Below are positions 31,001 through 64,000 of a stretch of DNA of 64,000 nucleotides, in pieces. The notes under the pieces were generated by a model. It did not search any database. It saw only the letters and a program-made list of their open reading frames with translations, and had not been told where the DNA came from. Origin of the DNA: Zingiber officinale (Eukaryota > Streptophyta > Magnoliopsida > Zingiberales > Zingiberaceae); contig NC_055992.1 in NCBI RefSeq assembly GCF_018446385.1, forward strand, positions 98,970,947-99,034,946, in the 5' to 3' direction. Made by a program: the position numbers and the translations under genes. Within the stretch, counting starts at the first letter, position 1. The number at the start of each line of letters is the position of its first letter.

Positions 31001-31340
31001 AAGCTTAAATGTAATCTAGCCGTTCGGCTATGAACTACCCCCTTTTTGTAATTTGGCTGCTCGGCCTTATTTTCTTTAATGTAATCTCCTTTTGCTTGTT
31101 GTTTCTTTGATATGATATCTCGAATCGAAGTTTATCTGTGTGCCGACCGCCCGCCTTTTATCACACTTAGATGCCGATCGTTCGCTAAATATGTAACGTT
31201 CCCCTTAGCAGAGATCGTTGGCTAGATACTAATGAAGTACCTTCGGGTATAGAGCCGAGCGGATCGGATACAGGAGCGGTCGAACGATATTGACGCTTTG
31301 ATAACAGAATTCCTTGGACACTTGCCGTCCTTATTGCCCT

Positions 31341-32236: not shown

Positions 32237-32350
32237 CTAAGTTGAACATTGCCGTTCGGCGAAGCTATTTGTCATCCTTTATCTTTTTGCTGCATGCATT
32301 ACAAGTACATAGGCGACCACAACGTATGCAAGATTACATCAGCGCACCTC

Positions 32351-36790: not shown

Positions 36791-36800
36791 ACGACGCCAA
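36783..36800 (-). other. Primer-binding site of the Tat-like element
   Basis: Read on the minus strand directly after the 5' LTR and a few bases: 'ttggcgtcgtatgtggga'. From memory this is close to the tRNA-Arg-type primer sites of Tat/Ogre-lineage elements. It fixes the orientation of the element as minus strand. Confidence 0.75.
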
Positions 36801-36802
36801 AT

Positions 36803-40131: not shown

Positions 40132-40194
40132 CGGAATCGAATACGGAATTAGGTGAAGCTCTACTGGATCTCGACTGAGAAGAGAACAAAGGAC

Positions 40195-40203
40195 ATTATA
40201 TAC
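40195..40203 (-). promoter_or_regulatory. TATA-like box of the kinase gene
   Basis: Minus strand 'gtatataatgtcc', about 65 bases before the chosen ATG. It supports the start at 40131 over the longer frame. Confidence 0.55.
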
Positions 40204-40499
40204 AAGTGAGAGTTGACTTTCAGGGATCCTTGGTACTTGCGTTCGGCGGAGCGGTGGAAGCACAGGTCAACCTCGATCACATGTGGAGACCTCGACGAGG
40301 GTTGACAGCGAAGACAAATCGTTGTCTCGAGGCCGGACACGGCACAGCTTCTTCAACCAGTTGCGATTGTCCGCGTTCGACAAATCCAAAAAAATCTTCA
40401 CAGGTGGAGCAGTTGACTCCGCATTGACTTGGAATAGGAAGTCAGAACAGTCTAACTTTGTGATTCAGAAAAATACGGTAAAAGGTTTAAATTTGGAAT

Positions 40500-41097: not shown

Positions 41098-44000
41098 ATG
41101 AGCTTGCGATGTGGAGTCGTCCTCCGCCCGTGGTCCGTCCATGGCTCCCCAGTGATCCCTTGCCGGACGGGTTTTCCCTCCGTGGTGGCCTTCAACCATA
41201 CGCGGCACCGCCTCGTGGGTTCCGACCAGCTGCGGATTCAGCTGGACCAACTGCGCGTCGAGGCCGAGATCACCCGCTCAAAAGGTGCTCTCGTTTCCTT
41301 TCCCTTGCTTTGTTCGGTAGGACAAGATGGCGCAAGGGTTTTATTATGCTTAGGAATGTTCTTTTCTTTATGGTCTCACGAAAGCTCGATGAGCATTCTT
41401 ATACTTGATCCGTTTGGGCTGAGGGAGCTGTTTTGATCTTGTGGCATGTTGGTTTTGGCGGAAGAAAAATAGAAGAATTGTGGTTTTGTGGTGAACTATA
41501 GAATGGCAATGAAGAACATATAAAAGATTGAAATCTTTGGATATAAAGAAACATTGCAAAGAGCAACCCGCTTCTGAGGTATAGGGGTTTGTGAATAGGC
41601 GATTTTTTTTAAAAAAAAATATCTCAAATATAGGAAATCAATAAAAAAAATATTAGAATTTTGGTCCATTTTAAGCCACAAATTCTAGAAGGTTAAGACT
41701 AAAAAAAAATGTTGAACCGTCACATTAGCAACCCCCTACAACGACCCCACGTCGTATGGAGGGAGGTTCAACAGGAGCACAGGTGGCAAGCGCATGGCAG
41801 GACCTCTCCAGGCAATGAAACCCCTGGGATTGACCCCTGCCCGATTCAGACTGAATACCATGCGCTTACCATCTGTGCCAAGCCTGGGGGCTAGAAGTTT
41901 AAAACTTAAGAATCAATCAAACGTGGTTTTCTAAATAGAATTATTGTATTAGTACTTAGACTATTTGACCGTTTTGGGCTGTAAACCATTTGTTAGATTA
42001 CCATTTATAAAATCAAGAGGACCTAACATCGGCAGTGTTCATGTTAGACCAAGCTACTTGAGCTCCACCATAAGGTTCTCGTCAATTTTTTTTTGGTTGA
42101 CACCATGTATCTAGTTTAGACTAATCTCGGGGGTGACCGGTCCGACCCCACAGAAGTTTCCCACCAGCCACCAGGGTATATTGAGAAGCGCTCACAGCAG
42201 GCAGCCCATCAGTCTAATGTTCTTAGGTCAACCGCCATTAAGGGAAATTCATCCAAGGGTATATCACTATTGAGATCTAAGATCATTTAAATCATCGTTA
42301 ATTATGTTAAAAAAAAAATCTTCTTTTTTCCCCTCTATCCTCACATTTTGCTGCTAATCAATTCAGCTTTTCATATTTTATTGTTGTTGATTTTAACTTT
42401 CCATAAGCCTCACACATCTCTCTTAGCATTCTCAACATTGAAATCATATAGAAAGAGTAAGTTGGGTATCAAGAAAAATCATGTAACAATACAAAATTAG
42501 ATTATAAAATAATAAATTTTGCAATTGCCTCAATGCGATTTAATCATCATTAAGACCTTTATGCATTGACCCATAACTCATGGACTACCGGAACTTGTGG
42601 TTGATATCGAATAATTTATTTTTATTCTTTTCTAAAGATGACTACTATAACCTGATAATTTTATAGTTCCATTTATAGCATAATATCATGCTTTTTTTTA
42701 ATTACCCCTCATTTCTATTACCTTAACCTCAAGTTTGAACATCTTGATTCCATTCTTTCCTTGGTAGACATTACTTTACAATGTCAGAAGATGAGAATTC
42801 TAATGCAGACCTCAAATAGTTGCTTAATTCACTGATTGTTTTACGTTATGTGGTAGTCTTCTCAGTATTCATTAACTTACCCTGTTTTGAACTGGAGCAA
42901 GCAATAGTCATTTCTTGTATATGTGGTTTATTGTCATTCTAAAATATCACGTATTTCGCCAGCAAATAATGCACGATTGAGGCTTATGCGTCTTACAGAG
43001 GCAGCTGAAAATCTCCAAAAAACAGCTGCTAAAAGCATCCAAGTCGGTAAGGAAAATGAAGCAAGGGAATTGCTAATACAAAAGAAGAAGTTGTTGCAAG
43101 CATTGGAGAAATCAAAGAATCGAATTGAGGTGCTTGACAAACTTTCAGCAAAGGTTACTGAGGTGGAAAATCAAATATCTATTTCTGCAGGCTAATTGAG
43201 TATATTCACCTCATTATTGATTACTTATCTTACTCTGCTAAGTGCTAAGATCTATAGATCTGTGACTGTTATATTTATTTTTGAAGTTTTCTCCATTAAC
43301 CAGTTTAAGTAACCTTGAGCTCTAGCAACAATATCAATTCTAGAAAAGTAGATATTCCAAGAGAGATCCAGGAATTTAACAATATCTAACCAAGCAACAT
43401 TTTCAAAATTGGGCAAGTGGGTGAACCACTGGCCTAACTGATCACTAGTTCTTCCAGTTCAACCAAGCTAAAATTAGGTTCAACTAGAATTTCTCCATCA
43501 CTCGAACCAGATCAGGTTGGCTTTCCTTTCCCTGGTTCATTGTGAATAATCCTACTAGGCTGGAAGATGCATAATTGCAACATTTAGCCTAGTTTTTTTA
43601 TTGGAGAGTTACTGTTTATTGTTTTGCATCTTCTCTCTTTGTTCACTTCATAGTATAGCCTGTGTTTTAGGAATAGGTGAAAATGAGAAAGAAACAATGA
43701 TTTTTAGAAAAGGTGGATAGAGAGAAGCTATAAAGTGAGTCTCTCACGTGGAAATGTGGTTTCCTTAGAAGGGAAAAAAATATGTAAACTTTCTGTCTCA
43801 TTGTTTCCTTGAAGGGAAGGGAAGAGAAAGAAAGAAGAATAAAATTAAATTTAGTATGTTTTTTAAAAAAATATAGAAAATTGACATATAAATTGAGTCA
43901 ATGATTTCGTTTTCTAAAACAACTAGCTGTTGCCAGTTGAGTAGTTTGCTGTTCAATTTGGGCAAAAGAAAATGGGAGAAATTGGAGAAAAATTATCTAT

Positions 44001-44949
44001 CGCACTCCAACGCTTTCTTTCTGTCCAAAACAACAGGGAAACTCTTTTCTATCCATTTTCATACGTTCTATTTCTTTCCCCTTCTTTTTCCCACAAGTAA
44101 AGACAGTCATAGTGTTCAAGAATGATAAATTTCTGTCAAATGTGACTTGAAGGGCCATTTTCACTTGAAGAAAAAAGAATATTGCCAAGTAATTTTTTTT
44201 TTAACTACAATTATCTACCAGTTGAATTGGCTTTTGTAGGATTAAGATTCAGATTTTCCAAGAAAAAGTAGCTATTAATATATGGAAACAAAATTGAGAG
44301 GGTGGCAAAGTAATGTGTGGTGAATCCTTTTGAGTATTATTCTTTTTTGTATATTCTCCATTATATATATCTACAATCTTGGATCCGTGTGGTGACTTTC
44401 TGATGATGTTAATATCCTCAATGAAAAGCTTACTCTTCTTATTATAGACATAATATTTTTTTAGAAACTAGTATGTCATTAAAATATTATTAGTGTTTTG
44501 TGTTTATCTTAGGTTCATTATTTATGGAGTTAACTTATTGCTAAAGGAATTGTTCCATAAGTTGTTAATGACATATAATTTCACAAGGTAAAGGTTCTCT
44601 ATATGGTGGATTTATTTGAAACAGTGACTGCTTTCAGGCGATTTCTCTAAAGGAAACACAACTAATTGGACAAGTTGCCATTCCACCTGTAGATAACCAG
44701 TTGGACTCTCACCAACAAATTCATTTCATCAGCCCAAATGAAGAAACTTATGAAAAATCCAGTTCAGGAAGTTCAGAGACCTTGCTCAAGCATATGTTTG
44801 AACAAATTGATCTGAAACTTTGTTCGGTAGAAGCTGACATAGATAATTTCTTAAGCGCCCAAACAGAAGAAAGCAAAGAAGTGCAGGTGAATGCAAAACT
44901 AGAGTTATGTGAGATTCTGAAGGATGTACTCCGCATCAGAGAAAAGTAA
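41098..44949 (+). CDS. Uncharacterised plant coiled-coil protein
   Basis: Three exons: 41098-41284, 42963-43162 and 44638-44949, phases consistent, 232 residues. The N-terminus is basic and hydrophobic (MSLRCGVVLRPWSVHG...) and could be an organelle-targeting region. Residues about 48-130 are a long amphipathic coiled coil ('QLRIQLDQLRVEAEITRSK' then 'NNARLRLMRLTEAAENLQ'), followed by 'AISLKETQLIGQVA' in exon 3. I recognise the coiled-coil pattern from conserved plant proteins without assigned function. The stop TAA at 44947 overlaps a good donor ('gaaaa|gtaag'), so a further exon is possible; none was recognised downstream. Intron 1 holds a SINE and the left edge of the large duplication, and exon 2 recurs at 63704-63903. 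An exon-2 read-through frame ends at a stop soon after the donor. Confidence 0.7.
41725..41885 (-). mobile_element. Different tRNA-derived SINE in intron 1
   Basis: On the minus strand 'gatggtaagcgcatgg' resembles a tRNA A-box and 'ggggtcaatccc' a B-box, spaced about 40 bases, near the start of a 160-bp GC-richer block in an AT-rich intron. It is unrelated to the SINE family at 19.2, 19.7 and 59.2 kb. Boundaries are approximate; no clear target duplication was found. Confidence 0.5.
42166..43259 (+). repeat. Direct repeat, left copy (matches 62909-64000)
   Basis: From 42166 onward the sequence matches 62909 onward at an offset of 20,743 bases, changing to 20,741 after a 2-base difference in a T-run near 42693. 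I saw no other difference. It covers the end of intron 1, exon 2 and part of intron 2 of the coiled-coil gene. The match runs to the end of the window, so its true length is unknown. Confidence 0.95.
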
Positions 44950-46812
44950 GTTCAGTTGGCTTACCCTATTTTGCGATAAGAATCTGAAGGGTTATAGTGT
45001 TGTTCTCTATTGTCATTTATAAAGATGGAAATAATGGTTTATGCAGTAAAATCTACATTTATGAAATTGATAATGTTTCAGTGGTATGTAAAAAGCAAAA
45101 AGTCCACCAATCTTCTGATTGATTAAAATAACAATATGTGCTAGAATATTTTGACTTTCATAACTATAAGATCGAGAGAACTTCTAGGCATTGCAAAGCC
45201 CATCTTTTATTGTTGCATTGTACCTCAGACCTGGCTCTTTTTGGTACAGAATTGCTAGCATGATGGAGATCAACACAGATGATATATGAGCTCTGAGCTC
45301 TCAGTTGTTGCCAGCTGATATAAGCTGGGAAATGTTGATGGTACGAAAATTTCATGCCATAAAGATTTCTTTTGCATGTGTTTTTAAAATGACATACTGG
45401 GAATCGCAGCATTTTAGACGTTGAGGTAAAGAATGCTGTATATTTATGCAGTGAGTTGTATAAAAAAGTTTTTGTCGACATAAAAGTTTCAGTATTCCTG
45501 CCAAAGTGCCAATACATGCCATGAGACAACTGAAGGATACAAAGGTGAATCTCATGCAGTAAGATCATAGCATATATTGGCAGGAAAACTGTGTTGCCAA
45601 ATTTAACAGAAAACAAGTTTATTTTCAAGATTGATATGGGGGGCAAATATGCTGGAAAACACATTGATTCTTTAGTGGACAAGTACTGAGAAAGGGATAG
45701 GTCTGTCCTCTTTCTACAAGCCTTTTTCGTTTTATTTCAACTCTTTAAAATTGATTTTCACCTCAGCTAGTATATACTGAAAAAATAAAGAAGATAGGTT
45801 GTCCAGTATTACTCATTTGATCCCTTGTGCCAAGACATTTGATGTTATCTCTGTCGTGAAGCTGTTTACTAATGAAGCAGATGAGCGTAAATACCTTGCC
45901 TATGCTCCCTCTGCTCAGAATTTCGAATGACTTAACATTAATACATCATTTACAATAGCTATGATATTCGTATATTGGCGGGGTAGTTTTGATACAGCAC
46001 CGTATCTAAATTTATCCATATTGTGCTACAGGGAATCATGATATTTGATCCAGGAGCAGCTCATGAATATCACTCAGGAGTGTCCTCAAGAATCAGTAGT
46101 TCTTGATCAAAAAATGCATTTGACCCAGCCTCTGCTTAAGTTTGCATCCTCTTTGTTTCCTGCTGTGAGCTGCTGCTTTATCTCTGCAGAGTCTCATAAC
46201 CATGTTCATCATTTTATGAATCAAACAATTATTGATCATCCATTGTGCAAAATGTTTGTGCATATTGGACAGCATGCAGAATAAAGGTATGAGACCTCTT
46301 GTGGAGTTCTATTGTGACTAGGAGTTTTTCATTGAATATAAGGTCAATAATATAATAAGAAGGCTGACGGTTTGGATGAGTTAAATATTTTTTTATTTAT
46401 CTCGATCGTCGGTCGAAAGTTTTCATGGGCTGGACCGATCAAATTAGTTGGTAGATGATGTTCTATTCCAGTAACAAAGTTAGGAATGTGATAATACTGG
46501 ACACAATTTTTTACACGATCTTAATTCTTAAGCATAACAAAATTAAAATTTTAAAGTAACACTAACACTACTTGAATATATAAATGTTTTGACACAAATT
46601 GATCCATTTATTAAGATAATTTTTTTTAAAAAAAATATTAATATTTTTAAAATTTATATAATTTTATTTTTTAAAAAAAGTTTAATTTCATTCTGCACTT
46701 GTGAAATTATTTTTTCTGAGTTTAAACTCCAGACCTAATCTTGTGTAGCGCCAGAAGGCCGGCGGTGCACCGGCGAAGGGCAGGAGGGAAGGGGAGGGAA
46801 GGGAAGGAGGAG
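44950..46812. other. Intergenic between coiled-coil gene and desulfhydrase
   Basis: Contains the likely 3' end of the coiled-coil gene and the promoter of the next gene. A plus-strand frame at 46045-46284 and a minus-strand one at 45164-45682 have no family resemblance and no supporting signals, so they are not called. A purine-rich leader ('ggagggaaggggaggg') precedes the next ATG. Confidence 0.5.
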
Positions 46813-49800
46813 ATGTCACTGCGCCGCGTCACCATCACGGTCGCAGCCCCACTCCCTCCTCCTCTTCAAACACCGCCTCAACTTCCGATTCTCTCGAGAT
46901 TAAGAGTCGCACCCTGCCGCCGCTGCTATTCCAACCCCAAACCCTCCCCTCTCCTCCGCCGCCAGTGGATGCTGTCGTCCCCGTCCGCTCCAATCCACGC
47001 CATTTCGTTCACCAAACCCTCCACTTCTTCCTTTACCTACTACTCCAACGGGCTCAGCGTCTCCCATCTTAGATCCGCGGAGGAAGCTAAACCTTCCTCA
47101 TCCTTCTATTTGATCCGAGACGACCTCTTGCACCCGTTGGTCAATGGAAACAAGGCGAGAAAGCTCGACGCCATTATTCCGCTCATCCTGCGCCACGCCG
47201 CCACAGACCTCGTGAGTCGCACGCCTACTTTTTTTCTTCTCCATCGTGCGTTTCTTCCGTCATTGGGATGCAAGTCTTGATCTTTTACATTTTTTCTTTG
47301 ATAGATTACCTGCGGAGGTGCCCAGAGTGCTCATACGGCAGCTCTTGGTACCATTATCTATCTATCTATATATCTATATATCCATATAGGTGGTTTAGGT
47401 GAAATTATGCTTAACGAGGTGGGTTTTGGTGCAGCTGTATGTTGCGCAGAGAGGGGGATGAGGGCGCACCTATTGCTCCGAGGTGAACAGCCGGCAGTGC
47501 CCACGGGCTACAATCTGGTGTCTTTGATGTATGGGAGTGTGAGTTATGTCCCAAGATCAGTATACGCTAATAGGAATGAAATGCTTATGAAACATGCTGA
47601 GTTGGTGGCAGGTGATCAGGTAAATGTGGTTTGGGCAGATGATATTCTGAATTTAGAGAATGATGAGCTGTCTTTGAACGACAATGGAACTCCTCTTTGG
47701 AAGGTTGGGAATGTTAGAAGAGTTGTGATTGTTAATGAAGGTGCTGGCAGTGTAGCAGCACTATTGGGTAGGTTGATTCGATCATAATCATGGAACCAAA
47801 TGATCAATGGCATCTTTTTTCTTATACTTGTGAATCAACATGTTTTCTTCTTTATCCTTTATGCAATACAACTGTCTTCGATCATTCACTGCTTAACCGG
47901 GTTCATTCCATGTATGAAGTTACAAATGTGCATGTGTTTGTGCTGCACATTTCAGCTCTCAGATACCTTGGCTTCTTAACTGCATTTATTATTAATTATG
48001 AGAACACATTTCAGGAGAAAATCTATCTCCTTGCTTCTCCTCTTTTGCATAGTCTACATAACCTCTGAAAAAAAATAGTTTACATAAATATTACCGTCCT
48101 CAGCTAAAATCTTGTCCTTGTTTGGTTGAATTAGGGTTTAGGGTTTTGAGATGGTGAAGTGTTTGTTAGTGGGTGTTCCATCTTGGCTTATGATGCCAGC
48201 AGGTTTTTGCTAACAGGGATATTGTAGGAGAGATGCAGTTGGAGTAAAGCTTATATTTTCATGAGGTTAGTACTTTGTTATTAATCAATCTGTCGCAGAA
48301 ATTATCACTCTACCATTTCATTCTGCTTCCATTACCTTTGTGTATGATCCTTTCTATATTACATATCTTGTGAGCACCAAAAACTAAGAGTTCTAGTAGA
48401 GCCTCAATCTTAGTTCTGTCTCCATGTATAACATCGAGAAGTCAAGAATAACAGTGACTTATAGTGGCTGTGGGTGAACATAGTAGAATTGGCCACTGTT
48501 CTTGAATTTTATCCATAAACAACTAGTCACTTATTGGATTGTAATGATGTTTATGCAACCAACCTACTCTGATTTTGTGTTTTCACCTTCTATATTTTAA
48601 ATCATCGTTGGAAGTTCTATAATCCTTGCTGGCTCTGACAGTGTTCATCTTTTGCTAGTTCATCGTTGGAAGCTCTCTCATCGCTTGCTATAGTAACTGG
48701 ACTTGTTTCATCTTCTTTTGGATTATTTTGTACACAAACATCCACATGGCTCCTAGTGTGTCTTGTTGCAATGCCAGTTCTATACATCAAGAATCAAATG
48801 ATTTATCCTTTAGTATTAGAATATCAGGTTTGATTTTCATTTTGTAGGTCTCATTCGGCTTGTAGAATATCTTTCTCAAACCCACATATTTGGAACAGAT
48901 CAGAAGATTGCTTTAGTAGTAGATGCTGGTACTGGGACAACAGCTGTTGGTTTGGCTCTGGGCATTGCATATTTGGGGTGAGTTCAAAATCTTACTAAAC
49001 CTTTGCTTTATAGATACTTCTTTACTCTGCCTAAAGTTGTCATCCAGCTTTTGCCCAAAATTATTCATTGTATTGCAGTGCACTAATAAGAAATTTTGAA
49101 AATGTTCTCATGGGCTAGGCAAGAATAAAATGTCTTGGTTAGTCGGTTTAACTGCTGTTGCTTTCCTGTTGCTCTGTTACTTTTCCATGCTCCTGCATTA
49201 TGACACATTCTTTACCACAATTGAATTGGCAACATAAAAATTGCTTGCACGTGGGATAATTCTGTCATCTCTTGGAACCTTATATACATCTGAAACTTAC
49301 ATCAAGTAAAAATGTAAATGTAGCACAGTTCTTAATCCACCACATCCAAAAAAGAACATCGTAGACTTGTTGAAGGATTAGCTTAGCTTATTTAAATGAC
49401 ACTACTGAAGCTGGTTAACTCAAATAGTACAGTGATAACATAAGGATTGTCCTTGTTAGTCTGTTCAGTGGGAGTTACTCGAGCCACTTCCTAATCTGAT
49501 CCTCAATATTTGATTATTAGTATGCCAATTTCTATCTTCAAACTCATTTTCAAGTTAAGTGAACCCACGAAATTCATCAGTTTGAGCTGGAAAAATCACA
49601 AGAAAAGGCTACCTATATCTGTCTACTTTCATGTTCCTGCTCCATCTACTTTGACAATATTGGAATGCTTTAGGTTACAATTTTGAAGTTTTATGAGCAT
49701 TTCCATGCTTTCCCTGACACATATCTGAGCTGTCCAAAACCTCGTTTTTCCTTGTAGGCTTCCATGGAAAGTTGTTGCAGTCATGCTTGCTGATACTAAA

Positions 49801-52259
49801 GAAAAGTACGAGGAATGTGAAAAATGCCTTGTATCTGACTTTAAGAGGGTTTATGGGTTAGAATCTCTTGAAGACGATGAGGGAATTGTGCAATGGGTCG
49901 AACGACTCCATCCAAGAAGGTATTGACATATATGGACAACTGAAGTGCATGTTGTTGGTATTGAAATTATTTGCTGCATTTAGGAGGTTAATATTCTTAT
50001 GTATTTGGTTCTTGATGCATCTATTCATGCTAATTCTTTGTTTGTGTGAACATAGCAAGTAACAACACGATAATCTTAAGAGTTGATCTAGAGAATGTCA
50101 CCTATAGTTATTTAAGGTGTGAGACGTCTAAAAGTGCATAGGTGATATGGGGCCTGAGGCACTAGGCGCAAGGTAAGGCGCACGCCTTACCGAAGTAAGG
50201 TGTTTGAGTATAAATTTATACAATTTAAACATATATAGGAAATTTTTACCAACATATTTCACTAAAAAAATTATAATCCATAAACTATTAAACAATAATG
50301 TAAATATAAAATTCACTAACATTCAAATATTGAAATAGTTTATCTTCATAATTAAAAACAAACTTCAAATTAAAGAAAAAACAAACTTCAAATATTGAAG
50401 AGCCATATAGAAAGAAATAAGTTTGCTAGGGAGGTTGATGTTCATTTTCTAGGGGAGAGGAACAGTTATGCAATAAAAATATGTTGTGTGCATGCAACAT
50501 AATTAAAGGTTGATGTTCATTTTCTTGGGGAGAGTCACTCAAGCTAATTAAAGGTTGATGTTCATTTTCTAGGGGAGAGGGAGAGTCATGCTAGAAAAAT
50601 GTCTCATGCATGAAACCTAATTAATTTAAAGATAATTAAAGGTATGGGTTAGAGCATCTACATCAACTTCCCTAAACACAGAATTTACTTTAAATTTTAC
50701 ATTTTACGTAAAAAAAAACCTTTGCATCATCCACCTTATCTATTTCCTAAATTTACATTTCATGAATAGTATTTCTTTAAATTTAGGGAATGAAATCCAT
50801 TCCCTAAACATTAAAATATCATTTAATTTGGGAGAGAGAAAAAATAAAGAGAATTGATTGGGTAATGAAAAGTATATATTATAAAGAGAAAAAATAATAA
50901 AAAATGGAAGAGAGAGAAGAAAATAATAAAAAAATAAGATAATGGAAACTTTATAGTAGCTGATATAGTGTGCAGTGAAAAGTGATTATCTAAATTTAAT
51001 AAAGATGGTTTATCCCAAATTTTAGAGATACTATAGAGAAACTGATGTGGATGCTCTTAGGCTTTTAAAAAAAAAATCTCACTTCAATGAGGTTAGGGAA
51101 ATCATGCCTTAAGCATGCCTTAACCTCTCAAAAGGCGCGTGCTTCTTTCAAGTATTATGCCTAAGTCACTACCCAAGCGCAAATGGCGTGCCTGGCTATG
51201 TAATCAGGGGCATGCTTTTCACAACTATGATGTCACCTATTTAATATTAGTATTTAAAAACCAGAGGAAAAATTCTTCATGACCTGGAAAATGCTTAGGC
51301 ATCCCATTTTTCTTATGTTTCAAATGATGCTTTATTTGAAGATGTCGGCATGCATTTGGTGACTCTAATTTGGCGAACCTCATCATTGATTGTTTTACTG
51401 AGATTAGACACGCCTAAGATTTTAGCGACATAGAAAATAATATTGCCATAGATAAACGCTTCTGAAGTTGTTAAGGCCATGCATTGATGCACGTATGTTG
51501 GTTAACTTGTTCCTTCCTAGGAAAATTGATAATTGGTGCTGCTCGATGCATATCCATTTCCTTCTCCCTTTGATGTTGTTTTATTTAAGTTTTGAACATT
51601 ATAATGTGGCTGCTCTCTCACTTAATCTCTCTTTATTCGATAGTTTTTTTCTTCCACTTTCTACTGTTTGTCCCAGTGCACACATCTACTCTCTCTTGAT
51701 CTGATCCTACTGAATTATGAAAGCTGCATGGTTGATTTGCCTCTTTTCCATCTCTAGGCTACTTTCTTCTTTGATATAATGTTCGACAAGTTCCAGCAGC
51801 ACAGCCAAGACTTGTGTCAAATTTGTTATTTTTGATCATGATCGTGGGAGAATAAGTAGCTTAGGTGTGATGAGATATCGATGTGAAACATACAGTTTTC
51901 TTTCTAGTGGGAACTTAAAATTTTCATTGTGGTTTTTTGTTTACTTGAGGCTCTGCTTTTCCTGTAAACTCTTCAAGATATTGTCCTGACTCAATATTCT
52001 GCACTTAACAAGGTTTGGGAAGGTACTGGATGGGGAAATAGATTTGTGCAGACAAATTGCACAGCAAACAGGAGTTCCCTTGGATCCTATCTATACTTTG
52101 GCGGCTTGGGAGCAAGCAGTCCTATTTGCTGATTCGGAAGATGAGAAGGATTCTCTAGTGGTGATGCTCCACACTGGTGGCACTCTCGGTTTGTTTGGGT
52201 TGGCACAAAGGTATGCTTCTGATTTCAGCTCTTCAGGACCCAACAGGCATGCTTTATAA
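46813..52259 (+). CDS. DCD2: D-cysteine desulfhydrase 2 (PLP enzyme, probably mitochondrial)
   Basis: Six exons: 46813-47211, 47305-47347, 47435-47767, 48848-48977, 49758-49919, 52013-52259 (stop TAA), all GT-AG with consistent phases, 437 residues; Arabidopsis D-CDES2 is of similar length. The first 70 or so residues are Ser/Pro/Arg-rich with few acids, as in an organelle transit peptide. The fold-type II PLP core follows: '[20 protein letters not shown]' with the probable Schiff-base lysine K114, then '[13 protein letters not shown]' (substrate and cofactor loop), '[15 protein letters not shown]', and '[20 protein letters not shown]' (phosphate-binding Gly-rich loop). '[12 protein letters not shown]' lies near the C-terminus. 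The enzyme family breaks down D-cysteine to pyruvate, ammonia and H2S and is related to ACC deaminase. Intron 5 is about 2.1 kb because of nested transposons. Assignment to D-CDES2 rather than D-CDES1 rests on the 'CGGAQSAHT' and 'LLLRGEQP' segments. Confidence 0.9.
50106..51229. mobile_element. DNA transposon in intron 5 of the desulfhydrase gene
   Basis: About 1.1 kb flanked by the 11-bp direct repeat 'atgtcacctat' (50095-50105 and 51230-51240). The ends have weakly inverted 'atagttatttaagg' / 'cttttcacaactat' sequences. Both subterminal regions contain 'aggcgc' and 'gccttac' words in inverted orientation, a pattern of several plant non-autonomous hAT-like repeats. There is no transposase. 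A MITE is nested inside. Confidence 0.6.
50652..51056. mobile_element. Tourist-like MITE nested in intron 5
   Basis: 405 bp with inverted ends 'gagcatctacatcaactt' and 'actgatgtggatgctc', flanked by TTA on both sides (50649-50651 and 51057-51059), the PIF/Harbinger target size. The interior is AT-rich and has no frame. Confidence 0.75.
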
Positions 52260-53606
52260 CGAGCCAGATTAAGGACATACGTTGTTGGGACTTCCGGTTC
52301 TTGAGTTTCTCGATCCTAATAGTCTTTCCATTTCAGTTTGCTAACGAGGGTCGTTGCTTCATTGATATTTACAGAGTTGTACAGCAACTTGAAAAGCACT
52401 AGAGCTGCTCTATCTAATTGACATCTTGAATACTTTCTTACGAATACTGCAAAATTGGCTTGTAATTGCTTTTGTTATGACGTTCATGAATTATGTGTTT
52501 CTTGAAATCTTCGAAATGTTGTACAGTAGTTTTATGATTTCCCCCGTTCTTCATTTTACGAGTATTAATGTGCCTGTATTAGGTGAGGCTGTTCTTCATT
52601 AGCAGCGTTTCTAGTTTTGTTGATGTATGAGTACTTCTAAACCATACTTATCAACGAACTGGCTTTGGTATCGATTCGAGGGATTTGCAGACTTCGTAAA
52701 ATAAACTTCTAAAGGACAAACTAATAATGTTTCATTTAACTCTCAATTAAGATTGGCCAGTGCTCAGTATTTTGCATTTTAGATTGAACTTTTGAAATCA
52801 AAATTAAAGACCGTTTCTCAAAACAAATGGAAACTGTTCGAATCAAAATCACTTGCTGCAATGTATGAAATAGTCTTTGGAGCAAAAAAATAATATCACT
52901 AATTCCAAATGGCCCAATATCGCTGACCTCATAATAAAATATAGATAAATAAATTATGAAAATTTTATTTTATCCTAACATAACAACCCTTTACATAAGC
53001 AAAATTAGACATTACGAAGCATGTTGTATCTATCACAAAACTTATTAAAATAAATATTCATGTACGTACCAACTACATCAATCCATGATGACGCTATGCA
53101 TGCCAATTTCTTCTATGTATCACAATTAGACCATACACATTGTAGTAAAACAAAATGATTTGGTATTTCTTCCATCCTAAAGACGAGCAAAACGTACACA
53201 CTAGTGATAACCAGAGAGATGAACATAACTATATATATATAGAATCTCCATGACAACACATCATGAACAGTGCACCATGGGTTCTCTATTACAAGCAATT
53301 CGATGCAATTTGCAACCTACATGGGTTTGAACAACCACTGATAATATTTAAGGTTTTCTAATCATAAAAATCCTTGGCATTGCTGTCATAGAGTCAAGAG
53401 AGCAGTCTTCATAAATAGAGGTTTAACCTCGATAATACAAAGCAAGTATTTTGTCATGGATCATGTGCTCCACGATTCTCCATTAGCTCCATGATTTTCA
53501 CTGTATACAAATAAAATGTCGCTCTCTAAAACATCTCCAAATACAATATCAAACCTGCAAATTTACATATTCCAACTCCATGGTAGCGCCATACAGTTAG
53601 TATTCA
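52260..53606. other. Intergenic, no gene seen
   Basis: 3' flank of the desulfhydrase gene and AT-rich spacer. It probably also holds the 3' UTR of the minus-strand exon to its right. Confidence 0.5.
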
Positions 53607-53813
53607 TCATTTTAGTGCAGAGGATGGAATGACAATTTCGAGTTCATCCATGGTAGGACAATCATGGATGCGCAAACAATGCTCATTTGCTAAATGCAGC
53701 AGACAAATGAAAGTCAAATGGGGAGATATATCTTTGGCTGAATCTAATGAGCAGTCAATTGGGAGGTGGAGTAAAATCTGTGTCAGATAAACTGTGGCTT
53801 CAGAATCCTGACT
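53607..53813 (-). CDS. Last exon of a condensin CAP-H (Barren) gene, partial
   Basis: On the minus strand a good acceptor ('ttgttgattgcag') opens a 68-codon exon ending in TGA at 53609-53607. It reads 'SQDSEATVYLTQILLHLP', then 'DISPHLTFICLLHLANEHCL', then 'MDELEIVIP'. The 'ISPHLxFICLLHLANEH' core and a short acidic end closely resemble, from memory, the C-terminus of plant condensin I subunit CAP-H (kleisin), the part that contacts the SMC subunit. No preceding CAP-H exon was recognised between here and 62.9 kb; upstream lies a LINE and other repeats. Either a long intron carries the rest of the gene beyond this window, or this is a stranded fragment. Confidence 0.6.
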   Translation of the reverse strand, partial: SQDSEATVYLTQILLHLPIDCSLDSAKDISPHLTFICLLHLANEHCLRIHDCPTMDELEIVIPSSALK

Positions 53814-54163
53814 CTGCAATCAACAACCAAAAACGAGTTGGAATATAATAAAACAATCAAGAGCATTTAGAAAATGCAACATAGCTAAATGTCCAATTTC
53901 CACACAAAAGTTTATGATGAATGCATTAGCAGACGGAATTCGGAGAGGCATCTGTATCTTATTTGTAGAGAAAAATAATCAATGATTAGATTGGTAACAT
54001 TACCATCAACTGGCAGCTAAATTCTATATATTCAAACGGCTTCTTTACACCACATGCACGTTACATGATAGGGCCAGGATTGTTGCCCCATTCTGCTGTG
54101 TTTGTTACGTTTAAAAATTTCATGGATTAATTATTTTCCAACAAAAATAACTCTTTTGCATAT

Positions 54164-57100
54164 ACAACAACAACCAAGCCTTATTCCACTAGGTCGAGTC
54201 GGCTATATGAATTCGTTTACACTATTGAACTCTATTTCCTATTATATCATCATTTATACTTAAATAAATTTTATATTCTTTTGTTGTTATTAACCAAGTT
54301 TTTTTTTTGTCTTCCTCTTCCTCGTTTGATATGTATGTTTGTCATAATTTTACATCATCTAACAGGAGCATTTATTGATCATCTAAGTACATGCTCGTAC
54401 CATCTTAAACGTATCTCTCGGAGTTTTCTCTCAATAGATACAACTCTGACTTTCTCTCTAATACTCTCATTTCTTATTTTATCAATCCTCGTATGTCCAC
54501 ACATTCACCTTATCATCCTCATCTCTGTAACTCTCATCTTCTGCTCATGTGCTCAAGTTATAGCCCAACATTCAGCTCCATATAACATAATAGGTCTAAT
54601 TGTAATTTTGTAAAACTTTCCTCTAAGTTTTAGAGATATTTTACGGTCACATAAAACGCTCAACGCTCTCTTCCATTTCAACCATTTTGCTTATATTCTA
54701 TGTAAGACATCTCTCTCAATCCCTCTATCGTTTTTAAAAAATGATCCTAAATATTTAAAATTCACAGTTTCGGACAACTCATCATCTCCTATCTTAACAA
54801 TTGTCTCATTATGTCTAATATTGCTAAACTTAAATTTCATATATTTTGTTTTTATTCTACTAAGTCTGAAATCTTTCCCTTCTAATGTTTCCCACTAAGA
54901 TTCCAGCTTAGCATTTACTCTTTCACGTGTTTTATCTACCAAAACAATATTATCTGCAAACAACATACATTACAGTACTGTGTTTTGAATGTGTGCAGTG
55001 AGTTCATCCATAATTAGTGTAAAAAATAGAAACTTAGAACTAATCCTTGATGTAACCTTATCTTTATTGGAAATGCTTCAGTTACTCCGCCAAAAGTCTT
55101 TACTCTGGTCGTTATATTTTCGTACATATCCTTAATTAGTTTAATATATATTACGCCAACACCTCTCTTTTTTAAAATTTTTCATATAAATTTTCTTGGA
55201 ATTCTATCATAAATTTTTTTAAGTCAATGAATATTATATGTAGATGTTGTTTTTGCTCCCGATATTTTTTAATTAATTGTCTAGAAAAATGTATAACTTC
55301 TATTGTCGACCTTCCATGCATGAACCCAAATTGATTTTCAATCATCGTAATCTCCTTCCTTAATCTTTTTTCTATTACTCTTTCCCAACGTTTCATTGTA
55401 TGGTTCATTAGTTTAATACCCATATAGTTTAAATAATTTTGTACATCTCCCTTATTCTTATATGAGTAGAGTACTTACCCTCCATTGATAAGGCATTTTT
55501 TTCGTTTTCAATATTATATTAAATAATTTTATAAGTCATTCAATACCTTATTTTCTTAGGCACTTTCATACCTCTATTGGAATATCATATGGTTCAACTG
55601 CTTTTCTATTGTACATCTCATTTAAAGCTTATTCTACTTCTGAAGTTTGAATTCTACGACAAAAATTTAAATTTCTATACTCATTTGACCTATTTAATTA
55701 TCTAAGTTAAGTCGGTCACCTAAACGTTCATTAAAAAGTTGATGAAAATACCTCTTCCACCGCTCTTTTATTTCTCCATCGTTTACTAGTACCCTATTAC
55801 ATTCATCTTTAATATATTTTATTTGGATAAGATCTCTTGTCTTCCTTTCTCCCATTTTAGCTATTTTATAAATATCTCTTTCCCTTCTCTTGTATCTAAT
55901 TTTTTATATAATTGTTCAAAAGTTTCACTCTTTGCTTTATTTGCTACTTTCTTAGCATCTTTCTTGACTATTATATATTTTTTTAAAATTTTTCTTATTC
56001 TTACAAATATATAATTTTTATAAGTTAATTGTTTTTCCTTCACCTTCTCTTGTACTTTCTTATTCCACCACCAAGATTTTTTACTTAGTGGTGCATGTCT
56101 CTTTGACTCATCAAGTAGACTCTTTGCTACTATTATCAACTTCGATATCATCTTATCCCATATCATATTAGAATCACTATATATTTCACATAATACTTGT
56201 ACTTCTACCTTCTCCTTTTTATTTCTCATCTTTTAACTTCCACCACTTAATTCTAGGACTCGTATATATTTTCTTTTCATTGATATTATGCTTGAGGCGT
56301 ATATCCAACACTACTAACCTATATTGGGCAATTAAGCTTTCTTTAGGGATGACCTTGCAATCTTTACAAATCTTTCTATCTTTCTTCCTAACTATAAGAA
56401 AGTCAATTTGCGATTTATTATTTCCACTTTTGAATGTGACTAAGTGTTTTTTTCTTAAAAAATTTATTAGCTAATAGAAGTTCATATACTATTGTAAAAT
56501 CTAATATAGGTTCCCTTATTCATTTCACGTTTCAAACCGATAACCCCCATGTACCCTCTTATATTACTCATTTTTCACTCCGACATACCCATTTAGATCA
56601 CCTTATATTAAAATCATTTTATTTGGCGGAATGTTTTATAATACTTCATCTAAGTCGTTCCAAAACTTTAATTTAGTAGATTCATCTAATCCTGCTTGCG
56701 ATGCATATACGTTTCATAGTCTCTGTCACCACTATTCTCTTAAGGGCTATAATTCTATCCTCTTTTCTAACTACTATAACTTCATCCTTTAACAAACTAT
56801 CTACAACAATACTCACTTCATTCCTTGCTTTACTCTTTCCTGTGTATTATAATTTAAAACCTAAGTTTTCTATCATCTTTATCTTCTCGCCTACTCATTT
56901 TGTCTTTTGTACACACAAAATATTAATTTTTCTTCTAATCACCCCTTTTTCTTATGCCAAAGATCTTGCCATTTCCGAAGGAACTAGAGCTACATTCCTT
57001 TTCAATTTTCATTCAAGAGTTCCTATGTGTTTCCACATCCTTTTTTGAGACCTCAAAAAAGAAAATGGACAAATTCCTTTTCTTAGGAAAACATACAAGG

Positions 57101-57540
57101 AAAAGGATAAAGGTAACCCCACTATTAACTACTTCATTTTCATTTATTAATTTCATAGTTATAGAAATATTAATTTCATAGTAATAGAAATACATGTCCT
57201 ACCGAGATAAAATTTGTAACTTACTATCCTCTTGTCTAGCAAGCATTGTATCTACTACCTCCACTGATTTACTAATGTGAGTTCCTATGCTCCATATACT
57301 AAATCTTAAACTATTAGTTTTCCTATTATATTTGTTCATATCCAACCTATGATGTGAGAACTATTGCTTATTTAACACTATACCCAAGTTTTCATGGAGA
57401 TATAGCGATCCTTGCTAATATATTATAGTCGGACTCTGCAACGTGAACTCTTGCATATTTAACACTACACCCGAATTCTGGAAATATAGCGATCTTTGCC
57501 AAGGCGTTACAGTCGGATCCTGCAACGCATTCCTTCCTAA
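54164..57540 (-). mobile_element. RTE-type LINE, degraded, nearly full length
   Basis: The 3' end, on the plus strand, is 'acaacaacaaccaagcc' followed by 'ttccactaggtcgagtcggc', a hallmark of plant RTE LINE tails. Reverse transcriptase is recognisable on the minus strand at 55172-55423 ('NQFGFMHGRSTIEVIHFSRQ' then 'LHIIFIDLKK'). Minus-strand sequence at about 55860-56230 and 56250-57000 corresponds to the linker and endonuclease part. Many frameshifts and stops scatter the frames, so it is inactive. The 5' boundary is approximate. It sits upstream (in gene sense) of the CAP-H-like exon, where an intron would be. Confidence 0.8.
57364..57528. repeat. Two tandem copies of an ~82-bp unit
   Basis: 'tatttaacactayaccc' ... 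'atatagcgatc' ... 'acagtcggatcctgcaacg' occurs twice in direct order, diverged by about 20% by eye. It lies at the presumed 5' end of the LINE and may be part of its 5' UTR. Confidence 0.6.
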
Positions 57541-59222
57541 GAACAACCTAACATTAGTACAATAATTTAATAAATCCATTCATTGAATATTTGTCGTAAT
57601 TTTAACGTTGACTGACAACCTAACGAATTGCATTGCATTGCCTTGACCGACAACCTTGCAAGAAAAATAATGCTTTTGTATATATATATATTTGCATTGC
57701 ATTGCCTTGACTTTTCTCCGGGATCCCGCATTGGCCCCGAGACCCCGCATTGATAGGAACTTCATGCTTCGAGGTTTTTTTTTCCTTTTTTTGCCTTGCC
57801 TTTGACCTTTGCTTGATCATACCTCGAAGGTGATGGTTGCAACATAAATCAATCTAGTTCGAGAACAAACTTGCCAAAGAATATCAAGTTACACTTGGTT
57901 TATGGAAAGAATCTAATTGATCTTCCAAAGATACGATCAAGAAAAAGTTCTATGCAAGGTCAAAATATATAGAAATCGTTTAATCTTTTAGAGGATAGAG
58001 ATTGAAACTTGATCTTTCAAGTTTGTTCCAACTTGTTGAATCAAGAACTCATAAATCAAACGATTTTTTTTTTTTTTTTCAAAACATGACCTAAACTGTG
58101 AGGCTTGTGAAAAATACAGCCAGTATCAATAATATACAATTTCTTTTAAAAAATTTAACAATCATATTCATATGTTTGTGTCCAAAACAAACATTAATTT
58201 GCACCTGCCATTAGGATATTATAGATTGAATGTTAAAAATGACCTACAATTTCCTGGAGCTTATGCTGTTGTAACAATTAATTCATAGTCTTAGTTGGCA
58301 AATGCTCGTGAAATAGTTGCATAAGTATGTCATGTTTGTAGATCGAATATTGATTATTTTGGATAAGCTCCAAAAGGCTACAAAAATTGGTGCATCTACA
58401 ATTTTGATTCAACTTTTTAGTACAAGGCTTAAAGTTCAGACCATAACTAGTAATTAATCTAAATCAAACGAGTTAACGGAGGAGAATTTAGAAGTGATTT
58501 GGATTATTACTAAAAGAAGGAAGAAGGTGAAACATAAGAAAATATATATACAAATAGAAACTACTACATAACAAAATGGGTGCTAAAAGCTTTATAAGAC
58601 TTCAATATAGCTATATACAACTTAATCAGACTTGCTCTAAAAGAAAGCACAATCAATTCCTTGTTTTTGACAAACTGTTCATTCCTTTTGTTTTGCATCT
58701 TATTCCGGAGTCCAAGTTTAGTTGTATAGGATGAAAAACTTCAACCTCTAAATTAGTGAAACCCAAAAAAGTCAGATTCTTGTGATTGAATTGATTTAAT
58801 CGAGAAAAAGCAATCTCACACATGAAGCTCCTACTCATGCATATCCCAAAGAAGGATCGAACCATATTTTACGCAACTTTACCTTATATTTTCCAAGAAG
58901 CTGTTTCCGCAACTCAAATCCATTACCTCAAGATTACATAACAATAACTTTACTATTGTACCAACATTCCCTTTCAATTGATTAAATCAGTCAAGCAAAC
59001 CTAAGTGAGGAACGATTCAATTGACTCATTTTAGAACTAGCTCAAAATGGAGCTCAGTAACAGCTTGATGTTTATTAGTCAAAGTAAAGTCATGAGCAAG
59101 GCAAAGTTTGCATTCTTCAATTCATATCTAAACATGGGGTGAGAGCTCAACAATTTTGGAAACTAAGACTCAAATCTCGAAGCCATGTTCAGCTGAGGCT
59201 CATGCTCAACAAACTATTGGGA
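57541..59222. other. Repeat-like spacer, no gene
   Basis: AT-rich with short chance frames on both strands. No inverted ends, promoter pattern or protein family was recognised. Confidence 0.45.
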
Positions 59223-59241
59223 AAATGTGAATGAAAACATG

Positions 59242-59361
59242 GTGGCAAAGATGAATGCGTTCGCTCTCAGCGCCCTATCAACCCGTCTCCGGATCAACAC
59301 GGAGGAGATAAATCACGGGCGACTACTAACTTTTGGAATAATGACTAGCACATAAGGAAAG
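59242..59361 (-). mobile_element. tRNA-derived SINE, copy 3, 5'-truncated
   Basis: 120 bp on the minus strand, matching the 3' half of the SINE at 19234-19449. It is flanked by the perfect 19-bp direct repeat 'aaatgtgaatgaaaacatg' at 59223-59241 and 59362-59380. 5' truncation with an intact long target duplication is typical of LINE-driven insertion. Confidence 0.85.
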
Positions 59362-59380
59362 AAATGTGAATGAAAACATG

Positions 59381-60399
59381 ATACATCGGAAAAATGACAC
59401 TGATATATAGTACAAGAGGTGTGAATCAAAGACCCGAATTGTACTAATCCAAAGGGTTTTCGTGTGAATACTATTGCACGCAGTGGATAACAGTCGGGTA
59501 GTGTGTCCATGTGACTCAATCAGAATTTATCATGAGTCTCTTTTGTGTGTTCAACTGGCATTAGGAGCGCGCCACATGCCTTGCATGTTTCTTATCACAA
59601 GCTTTTGCATACTCAATGACTCATGTCACATTCTGTCATATGCTTTTGCACGAGGATGCCACATGTTATCATATGCTTTTATATGAGAATGTCACATGTG
59701 TGCATGTCAGTACATGTAGCCCAAGAAGCTCTTATAAAGAGAAGCACGTTGATCTTGAGCAGAACATGAATGAGAAAAGCTTTACATGCTTTTTTCTTCA
59801 TATGGAAGAAAAGGCAGAAGCAATTCTAAGCAGAAGTTTTTCTTCAAGCAGAATAAAGCAAAAAAGGTGTCAAAAGTAAAGAGAGATCTCTTCTCCTTAA
59901 ATTCCCTCATTTCTTTGTTGTTTTGTTCTACCGTACAATTTTTCACTCAGTAGATATTCGTGATACCGTTTAGATATTCGTTCATGTCAACCTATTCTAG
60001 ATTATATTCATGATTTCGCCATTTTTATTCTAGGAAACAAACATTCAAATGTGACCTCTTAGCATCCCTGAAAGTGACAAATATGTTTTAAGGATACTGT
60101 CTCGTAGGACTCACCATCTTTGTTCCTCGAGCAACACTCCTCACTCGGACTCAAGACTTCGGGTTTGTTCGGCATCCATCTCAAGCCTTCTGCATCAACT
60201 TGATACTCGAAGCACACACTGACTCGGCAAGTTGACGAATCAACGACTTGGCAAATTCCCTTTCCAACTCGAACTTCGGCAATTAAGCTTATTAAGATAG
60301 GTTGACAACTTGAGATAATCAACTCAAACCATCTTAACAGATAAGTAATCACTGTCCCTCCGATAGATTATGGATAGAGCAACAACAAACTTAAAACAA
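59381..60399. other. No gene; possible Copia flank
   Basis: Contains a 'cttataaagagaagc' TATA-like patch near 59731 and repeated 'tcatatgcttttgcac' words (59636-59680). It could be LTR or leader of the Copia fossil to the right, but no matching LTR or primer site is seen. Confidence 0.35.
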
Positions 60400-62908
60400 A
60401 TCTATTCTGTTAAGATGGCGACAGAAGATGTTAAGATACAACAAAACATGTGTTGACCTCCTCCGTCCTGATTGAAAATGTTTAAATCAATCATATGGAA
60501 AAACTAAAGAAGTTCACTGGTTTAAATCTGATACGGATCTTGACCGAGGAATCTCCTAAATATGTTGAGGATGTAAATGATGTGAAAACCATGGACACAT
60601 GGAACAAATATAAGTTTCTATGCTGAAACTACATCCTTAACAACTTTGTTGACTCACTATACGTTGTGTACTGTATAAAGAAAATGGCAAAGGAGCTGTA
60701 AGAATCCCTGGACAAGAAATATAAATTGGAGAATGTTGAGGCCAAAAAGTTTATTGTTGGTCGCTTCTTGGACTATAATTGGTTGACTCCAAGACGGTAA
60801 TTAACCAAATCTAAGAGCTTGTGTTAATCTTGTAAGAAATTTACTCAGAAGGCATGATGCTAGTGAAACACTACATGTGGCAACGATCATTGAGAAGCTA
60901 TCTTCCAACTGGAAGGACGTCAAGAATTATCTGAAACATAAGCGAAAGGAGATAAATGTGGAAGAATTCATTATTAGACTTAAAATGAGGAAGACAACAA
61001 GAGTTCAGGCTATTGTGAATGCCAACGTTGTCAAGCATAGTTAAAGCTCAAAATAAAAGAATCCCAAATCTTCAAAGATGGGACATAGAGGAGACAATTT
61101 CAAAAAGAAATTCTTTGGAAAGTGCTACAATTGTGACTGAGTTAGTCATCAGTCTTCGGAGTGTAAAAAGTCAAAGAAGCAGGAGGTCAATCTGAATGAG
61201 GAACTAGACATGGACCTCTATTTCGTTGTTTCTGAAGTGAACCTAATAGGTTCAAACCTACGATAATGGTGGACTGATATTAGTGTGCCACCGGACATGT
61301 TTACTACAACAAAGAGCTACTCCACAACTTTAAAGAAGTCAAAGATGGAGACAAGCTATTCATGAGAAATTCAACAACCTCGGACATAAAAGGCCAAGGG
61401 AAAGTGATGTTGAAGATGATCTCAGGTAAGGAACTAACTCTAAACAAAGTGTTGTATGTTCCAGAGATTTGAAAGAATCTAGTATCCGTATTGCTTCTTA
61501 GCAAGCATGGGTTCCGAATTATGTTTGAGTGAGATTGGATTGTGTTGTCCAAATATGGAATGTTTATAGGAAGAGGCTATATAAATGATGGGTTGTTTAA
61601 ATTCAATGTAATAACCATTTGACCTAAGATAAATAAAATCGAAATCTCTTCTATGTATATGCTCGAGTCTTCCAATTTATAGTATGGTAGACTAAAACAT
61701 GTTAACTACGATATTTTAAGTAGATTAATTAACATACAAAGCATACCTATATTCCACCTTGACCTGAAACACAAGTGTGAGATTTGTGTTGAAGCAAAAA
61801 TAACAAAGTCAACCTTTCAACACGGTGAAAGAAACACTAAAGCACTCGACCTAATTCACACAAACAAGTAGTGAGAATAAGTACTTCATCACTTTTATAA
61901 ATGATCACACAAAACACAGTTATATGTATCTTCTCCAAAGTAAGGATGAAGTTATAGATAAATTTAAACTATATAAGAATAAGGTTAAAACCAACTTAAT
62001 ACGAAAATTAAGGTGAGGTGAATATATATATCACCATTCGCTGAGTTATGTGCTAAACACGGAATTAGACATGAAACAACAGTTTCCTTCTCCTTAACAA
62101 AATGTGTTGCTTAGCAAAAGAATCACACTCCAAATGATATGATAAATGTTATTCTATTGAGCTCTAAATTGCTAGAGCAAATAAGGGGAAAGTTGTGCTA
62201 ATGGCTAATTACATTTTAAATAAGGTATTTTGAAAAAAATAGAAAAGAACCCTTATAAGTTATGGACTGGAAGACAACTATCCTACAAATACTTGCGAAT
62301 GTGAGGTTGTCTTGCAAAATGTTGGTTCCTGATCTGAAAAGGATTAAGATAGGATTAAAAAATATTGATTGCATATTTCTTGGATATGCTCATAACAACA
62401 ATGCCTATAAGTTCCTTGTGTTTAAATCTTAAATACCGAATATACACAAGAACTCGATTATTAAATTGAGAAATGCTTCGTGAACATGTATTGCCATATA
62501 AGACTCAAGAGGAAGAAAATTCCTCCAAATGGGCATTGGAATCACAAGAAGAAGTTGATGAACCTGTTGAGGTTGAGTTCACAGGAAGAAAAAGAGTTCG
62601 GGTGGAAAAATCCTTCGGAACAGATTTTATCACCTTCATATTGGAAAATGATCCCCAAAGTTATTCAGAAGCAGTAATTTATTCTGAAGGACCTAATAGA
62701 AAGCCACAATTACATCTGAAATTGACTCTATCTTGCAAAATCATACTTGGGAACTTGTGACTTCCTACAGGAAGTAAACTACTAAGTTGTAAGTGGATTT
62801 CAAGAAGAAAATAGAATCAGATAGCACGATTAATAAGTAAAAGGCAAGATTGGTAATTAAAAGTTATCGACAACACGAAAGCGTTAATTACTTTGATATG
62901 TATCTCCA
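60400..62908 (+). mobile_element. Ty1/copia retrotransposon fossil, partial
   Basis: Plus strand, in Copia order: gag-like segment (about 60490-61060, 'EKLKKFTGLN'), CCHC-type knuckle region near 61120-61190, protease/GAG-pre-integrase region (about 61230-61830, 'GKELTLNKVLYVPE'), integrase traces (61830-62450) and the first part of reverse transcriptase (to 62908). It is heavily broken with many breaks and is clearly old. There is no LTR pair. It ends exactly where the duplicated segment begins at 62909. Confidence 0.8.
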
Positions 62909-64000
62909 AGCCACCAGGGTATATTGAGAAGCGCTCACAGCAGGCAGCCCATCAGTCTAATGTTCTTAGGTCAACCGCCATTAAGGGAAATTCATCCAAG
63001 GGTATATCACTATTGAGATCTAAGATCATTTAAATCATCGTTAATTATGTTAAAAAAAAAATCTTCTTTTTTCCCCTCTATCCTCACATTTTGCTGCTAA
63101 TCAATTCAGCTTTTCATATTTTATTGTTGTTGATTTTAACTTTCCATAAGCCTCACACATCTCTCTTAGCATTCTCAACATTGAAATCATATAGAAAGAG
63201 TAAGTTGGGTATCAAGAAAAATCATGTAACAATACAAAATTAGATTATAAAATAATAAATTTTGCAATTGCCTCAATGCGATTTAATCATCATTAAGACC
63301 TTTATGCATTGACCCATAACTCATGGACTACCGGAACTTGTGGTTGATATCGAATAATTTATTTTTATTCTTTTCTAAAGATGACTACTATAACCTGATA
63401 ATTTTATAGTTCCATTTATAGCATAATATCATGCTTTTTTAATTACCCCTCATTTCTATTACCTTAACCTCAAGTTTGAACATCTTGATTCCATTCTTTC
63501 CTTGGTAGACATTACTTTACAATGTCAGAAGATGAGAATTCTAATGCAGACCTCAAATAGTTGCTTAATTCACTGATTGTTTTACGTTATGTGGTAGTCT
63601 TCTCAGTATTCATTAACTTACCCTGTTTTGAACTGGAGCAAGCAATAGTCATTTCTTGTATATGTGGTTTATTGTCATTCTAAAATATCACGTATTTCGC
63701 CAGCAAATAATGCACGATTGAGGCTTATGCGTCTTACAGAGGCAGCTGAAAATCTCCAAAAAACAGCTGCTAAAAGCATCCAAGTCGGTAAGGAAAATGA
63801 AGCAAGGGAATTGCTAATACAAAAGAAGAAGTTGTTGCAAGCATTGGAGAAATCAAAGAATCGAATTGAGGTGCTTGACAAACTTTCAGCAAAGGTTACT
63901 GAGGTGGAAAATCAAATATCTATTTCTGCAGGCTAATTGAGTATATTCACCTCATTATTGATTACTTATCTTACTCTGCTAAGTGCTAAGATCTATAGAT
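62909..64000 (+). repeat. Direct repeat, right copy (matches 42166-43259)
   Basis: Nearly identical to 42166-43259 apart from a 2-base T-run difference near 63436. It contains a second copy of exon 2 of the coiled-coil gene at 63704-63903 with the same splice sites. Exon 1 is not duplicated within the window: the sequence left of 62909 is the Copia fossil. The copy runs off the window end. Confidence 0.95.

Follow-up and report, generated by a model that had tools for sequence, protein, structure and literature searches.

Does a 20.7-kb direct repeat in the genome assembly of ginger (Zingiber officinale) record a tandem duplication that exists in the plant, and what would such a duplication carry? 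The repeat lies in the window analysed here, a stretch of 64,000 bases on contig C7 (G000:C7:98970947-99034946) of a 3.09-Gb phased diploid genome assembly in 211 contigs, and flanking sequence on both sides (left 20 kb, right 49 kb) was added to give 133 kb of examined sequence. Positions are window coordinates unless a contig is named. The window consists of A, C, G and T only, and no N occurs across the 133 kb, the added stretches included. Within the assembly, the two-copy structure, the single copy on the homologous contig, the junction, the open reading frames and the tract pattern of sequence differences are directly observed. From these sequence data we consider it probable that a tandem duplication of 20.7 kb really exists in diploid ginger, carried by one haplotype (4A), and that the other (4B) has a single copy.

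Extent of the direct repeat

The initial annotation of the window had claimed a direct repeat of at least 1.09 kb at an offset of 20,743 with a 2-base difference in a T-run. Self-comparison bears this out: positions 42166–43259 and 62909–64000 align over 1,094 columns with 0 mismatches and one gap, which corresponds to 2 T in a T-run. A tandem unit at 42166–62908 with its junction at 62908/62909 had also been proposed, with extension to the right and comparison with that unit as the check, and the sequence right of the window agrees with the proposal. Positions 42166–56566 align with 62909–77328 (49 mismatches in 14,440 columns) and 56599–62909 with 77317–83654 (89 mismatches in 6,344 columns), after which the match stops. 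Because the repeat extends across the full unit to 83654, the tandem structure holds on extension.

The left copy, hereafter unit A (42166–62908, 20,743 bp, forward strand), is delimited by self-comparison, genome comparison and three-way alignment. The right copy, unit B, begins in the window (62909–64000, forward strand) and continues past its end to window coordinate 83654 (loci L009-L011), amounting to a gap-free, full-length copy of 20,746 bases. Both full copies have the same orientation with 0 bases between them, and the number of units is two, with none further in the 133 kb examined. The three-way alignment sets 20,679 bases of A and B opposite each other, with 146 differences; eight of these are breakpoint noise contributed by four flank bases at each unit end.

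A single copy on the homologous contig

Two observations go beyond what the initial annotation had in view, namely that the homolog carries a single copy of the unit and that the last 3 kb of unit A resemble the homolog and not unit B. A 1,092-base query finds full-length matches twice on C7 and once on C8 (96%), and the other 38 matches are fragments of ~90 bases or less (40 of 225 candidates scored). The segment on C8 (86414488–86435327) is unbroken across both breakpoints, and the right end of unit B corresponds to a point that is continuous on the homolog. In the wider surroundings, C8 86.392–86.442 Mb is collinear with window positions 12535 to 90422, up to the limit of the compared C8 stretch, in pieces that are 87–99% identical, and the window at C7 99 Mb has the same orientation as C8.

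That C7 (163.5 Mb) and C8 (141.0 Mb) are separate contigs would leave room for an interchromosomal segmental duplication between chromosomes that are not homologous. The collinearity around the unit contradicts such an origin, as do the matches of unrelated queries: contigs pair as 1/2, 3/4 and so on to 21/22, and all 11 pairs show paired matches at least once. Excerpts of the assembly report describe a diploid assembly of 3.1 Gb with 11 pairs of homologous chromosomes in 219 scaffolds, the longer homolog being named A (PMC8342452). Given the 11 contig pairs and the published figures (11 chromosome pairs, 3.1 Gb), the C8 copy is most plausibly an allele, and an interchromosomal duplication appears very improbable. 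C7 and C8 are very probably ginger chromosomes 4A and 4B.

Several peptidase loci at C7 133–142 Mb have their counterparts at C8 116–123 Mb in reversed order and on reversed strands, as expected if there is an inversion on that chromosome pair. A fragment of a ginger protease aligns with C8 122.28 Mb in each exon, at 97, 86 and 89%, the runner-up locus reaching ~80%; this speaks for Zingiber without being proof. In a PDB search with another peptidase, 1cqd, a ginger protease, ranked ninth among 48 relatives. Two large inversions on ginger chromosome 4 are mentioned in excerpts of the assembly report (PMC8342452). These would affect the same chromosome pair as the duplication, if C7 and C8 are 4A and 4B, but they are of megabase scale, whereas the duplication locus is collinear with C8 and in the same orientation.

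Gene content of the unit

In copy A, a D-cysteine desulfhydrase-like gene of 437 aa occupies 46813–52258 on the forward strand in six exons (46813–47211, 47305–47347, 47435–47767, 48848–48977, 49758–49919 and 52013–52258), according to a model built by hand from GT-AG sites without transcripts. Its protein matches PF00291 (PALP) with 39.8 bits, above the cut-off of 35. TIGR01275 gives the best match of 8 NCBIfam models (99.7 bits, E 1.9e-28), at a score below the curated cut-off of 289.4, and the PDB matches are D-cysteine desulfhydrases and 1-aminocyclopropane-1-carboxylate (ACC) deaminases. These profile matches predict that the gene likely encodes a pyridoxal phosphate (PLP) enzyme of the D-cysteine desulfhydrase family. 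The protein contains GNKxRKL, which we take to be the lysine motif as in plant DCD2, and presumably the gene is to be assigned to DCD2 rather than DCD1. With plant DCD2, represented by tomato SlDCD2 (PMC10031741), the predicted protein would also share the PLP dependence and the kinship to D-cysteine desulfhydrases and ACC deaminases.

The initial annotation had anticipated a second desulfhydrase gene in the right unit; it is present, and the frame is open in unit A, in unit B and in the homolog copy, here termed C. Coding differences between A and B comprise 5 bases that change 4 residues (N111S, D329N, D341G and G431V, from A to B). The first-intron donor of copy B reads GTGGTC and may be a weaker splice donor. 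A genome search with 261 residues yielded 9 exon matches, all at the three copies A, B and C (18 of 18 candidates scored), and a diploid plant would therefore carry three desulfhydrase-like genes. The unit provides the gene with 4.6 kb of upstream and 10.6 kb of downstream sequence.

Two coding-like exons of another gene lie at 42929–44948 on the forward strand (by eye ~42958–43152 and 44639–44946). They show no A-B difference, and the gene has 6 matches, only at the three copies (42 of 42 candidates scored). A 'CAP-H-like' label had been attached to this sequence, for which we find no support: the joined exons, the only part of the gene that was covered, have no Pfam match at E <= 0.1, including any condensin family profile. 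A CSL zinc-finger first exon, considered for this gene, was not found in a motif search of the 133-kb stretch.

Junction and breakpoints

The junction (62903–62915, forward strand; TCTCCAAGCCACC) brings TCTCCAA against GCCACC with one shared base, an A. Its right parent reads TCTCCAATATCG (83648–83659) and its left parent CCCACCAGCCACC (42160–42172); just before CTCCAA, the junction has one T fewer than unit B and the homolog. The absence of long homology at this point, noted previously from the window alone, is confirmed, with only 1 bp in common between the parents. The join is thus non-homologous, with microhomology of 1 bp, a configuration that end joining, replicative models and a blunt join of contigs would produce alike.

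Unequal crossing-over between existing repeats, i.e., non-allelic homologous recombination, could be invoked on the grounds that the left breakpoint at 42166 is located inside a dispersed repeat of ~170 bp (42086–42254), which is 76–81% alike in 5 of 5 other loci aligned. However, the breakpoints have no long homology in common, and within the 133 kb the region around the right parent end (83000–84300) has no match apart from itself and its duplicate. As the parent ends lie in different sequence and overlap by 1 bp, homologous unequal exchange is unlikely; the breakpoint sequences already contradict recombination of the non-allelic type, which we regard as very improbable.

The right breakpoint falls between two LTR-like (long terminal repeat-like) segments, 80162–80989 and 86775–87650, that are ~76% alike and both carried by C8. 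Inside the unit, the portion cut by the breakpoint (59443–62908, forward strand) comprises an LTR-like segment and gag-pre-integrase coding sequence. Given the flanking segments and this coding sequence, the right breakpoint probably lies within an old Copia-like element, where the Copia label is our assumption from the gag_pre-integrs domain.

Differences among the three copies

The three-way alignment of left unit (A), right unit (B) and C8 homolog copy (C) shows 437 A-C and 467 B-C differences over 20,608 bases. Between 42170 and 59250, 45 sites are private to A, 5 to B and 351 to C. The A-private sites are strongly clustered, forming 13 runs with a longest run of 12; in 20,000 shuffles, neither such a small number of runs nor a run of this length occurred once. 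Across the longer runs, B agrees with the homolog and A departs from it by roughly the usual distance between haplotypes, a pattern to be expected if the 4B allele had converted B or if haplotypes had been mixed in the consensus. Two such conversion-like tracts lie at 43747–44031 and 45158–45448, where B equals the homolog and A differs at 12 and 9 consecutive informative sites, respectively. A homolog-like tail of unit A spans 59840–62899, with 13 A-C differences in 3,050 bases, 7 of them common to B, vs. 82 B-C differences in 3,050. Apart from four indels treated below, most A-B differences sit in clean tracts in which one copy has the 4B allele, a trace to be expected from gene conversion, from template switching or from a mixing of haplotypes.

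The excess of private sites in A (45 vs. 5 in B) was considered as a sign of different ages and rejected, as it is explained by the tracts: outside runs of at least three sites, A retains 9 private substitutions and B 5 (binomial p = 0.42). This balance would fit two loci ageing side by side. The 9 and 5 sites translate into a post-duplication distance of ~0.09%, compared with ~2.1% for homolog-private sites, suggesting that the duplication is young, at roughly a twentieth of the haplotype distance. Random sequencing error in A was ruled out as the source of the A-B differences by the clean tracts and by the ratio of transitions to transversions, which is 27:18 at A-private sites and 235:116 at homolog-private sites, where random error gives 1:2. 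That A, B and C are merely distinct was at one point taken to indicate three alleles; this argument was dropped, since mosaics of two alleles are distinct too.

Real duplication or assembly artefact

The initial annotation had left three options, a recent event, gene conversion or an assembly error, the last of these being the main rival to a real duplication. It would consist of two 4A contigs that overlap by 20.7 kb and were joined unmerged, with the 4B-like patches resulting from haplotype mixing at contig ends. According to excerpts of the assembly report, the genome was assembled from Canu-corrected Oxford Nanopore Technologies reads with SMARTdenovo or wtdbg2, scaffolded by Hi-C and treated with LR_Gapcloser in two rounds of gap closing, and 577 gaps remain between 796 contigs (PMC8342452). 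Several points therein and in the sequence itself weigh against a real duplication. Such an assembly route can leave unmerged contig overlaps, and the junction is free of homology. The homolog-like patches occupy the terminal part of A and, for the most part, the first half of B, which is where two overlapping contig ends would be expected to be least pure. An unpolished contig end could account for the T that is lacking near the junction, and the tracts, together with a 4-bp deletion in A at 44004, could stem from haplotype mixing during correction or polishing. In addition, 17 of 27 A-B indel events, alignment ends included, involve one or two bases and say little.

Haplotype mixing can make tracts but hardly the larger indels that are private to one copy. 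Indels were counted only if closely flanked by sites at which A and B agree against the homolog; the 4-bp indel at 44004, located inside a tract, and a 23-bp indel at 60489, located inside the homolog-like tail of A, were left out. Four indels remain, listed here with the distances in alignment columns to the nearest such sites on their two sides: an additional 22 bp in B at 45660, an exact repeat (13 and 27 columns), an additional 8 bp in B at 46029 (59 and 18), an additional 8 bp in A at 45499 (18 and 8) and 45 bp missing from B at 56554 (27 and 101). Within these 45 bases A differs from the homolog at 2 sites, and the segment in A is therefore not that of the homolog. If two alleles had been mixed at random, the sequence would have to change from one to the other within tens of bases at every one of the four indels. 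The tail of A is likewise not plain homolog sequence, considering that its differences from C contrast with a base error of ~0.0014% given in excerpts of the assembly report (PMC8342452).

False segmental duplications arising from divergent haplotypes are a problem described in excerpts of earlier work (PMC2864568, PMC9516828), and they resemble the ginger locus in their near-identical adjacent copies and homology-free junction. They differ from it in that the other haplotype of ginger was assembled separately and in the four indels private to one copy. The locus also resembles the haplotype copy-number variants of plants, tandem duplications that arise by end joining or by template switching in replication. 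These are direct duplications of kilobase size that include an entire gene, occur on a single haplotype and are joined bluntly or at a microhomology, and we see no essential difference between them and the ginger locus. Ginger has a heterozygosity of 3.78% according to an excerpted genome study with a further phased assembly, of cultivar Zhugen (PMC8342499), and between its haplotypes excerpts of the assembly report count 17,445 duplications, which range in size from 504 to 70,145 bp (PMC8342452). Taken together, the data favour a recent duplication on one haplotype accompanied by conversion-like tracts, ordinary in kind, well preserved and probably real, while an assembly artefact is unlikely, if still to be reckoned with. 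Among the papers retrieved by literature searches, judged by title and abstract opening, none dealt with this locus.

A possible course of events

The reality of the duplication in the plant, its mechanism and any effect on dosage or expression are what we infer from these observations. For a real duplication, the junction would have been made by non-homologous joining, either through end joining or through a template switch during replication that used 1 bp of microhomology; it would have linked the end of one unit, within the old Copia-like element, with the beginning of another, within the dispersed repeat. The short 4B-allele tracts in B, and the 4B allele in the last 3 kb of A, would go back to exchange with the homolog, either in the course of this event or afterwards. 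Since the unit contains a complete gene with its flanks, a diploid plant would have one additional desulfhydrase-like gene and thus three rather than two. The tail of A, homolog-like nearly to the junction in contrast to the remainder of A, also permits a single-event version, which we consider rather doubtful: a switch by homology from 4A to the homolog near 59.6 kb, 3 kb of copying and a 20.7-kb jump back with 1 bp of microhomology, so that one interhomolog break-induced replication would make both the duplication and the mosaic.

Neighbouring and other loci

Directly left of the duplication and outside the unit, a protein kinase open frame (PF00069), MAPKKK-like by eye, occupies 38830–40266 on the minus strand. 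Further left, ~10.3 kb of C7 at 27311–37613 are absent from C8 (site near 86409910, in a TA repeat). This segment is bounded by direct repeats of ~813 bases with 94% identity, whose outer ends read, by eye, TG and CA, and is probably an LTR-retrotransposon insertion on one haplotype; it contains a tandem array with a period of ~65 bases at 31340–32232. Degenerate direct repeats of 0.5–1.1 kb (76–79% identity) are present at 2518–4226, and nested direct and inverted repeats (77–95% identity) at 7308–9567.

Elsewhere in the genome, papain-family gene clusters are located at G000:C11:51.64–52.17 Mb and C12:54.39–54.89 Mb; their main-exon proteins are identical or nearly so on both homologs, and three of the C11 genes have a TAG stop in common. 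Two peptidase exons on an unplaced contig (G000:C126:299662–301929) score the same or nearly the same as a pair at C10:222596–224711, near the C10 start. The C126 stretch is perhaps an unmerged duplicate of the C10 pair and would as such bear on the artefact rate of the assembly.

Implications

If the duplication were not real, the locus would show in detail how an assembly can simulate a duplication, and would call for caution with counts of haplotype duplications in the ginger genome. If real, as we consider probable, both breakpoints and the single-copy allele are kept, so that its origin and exchange history would be directly readable, and the two haplotypes of a clonally propagated crop would have come to differ in gene dosage only recently.

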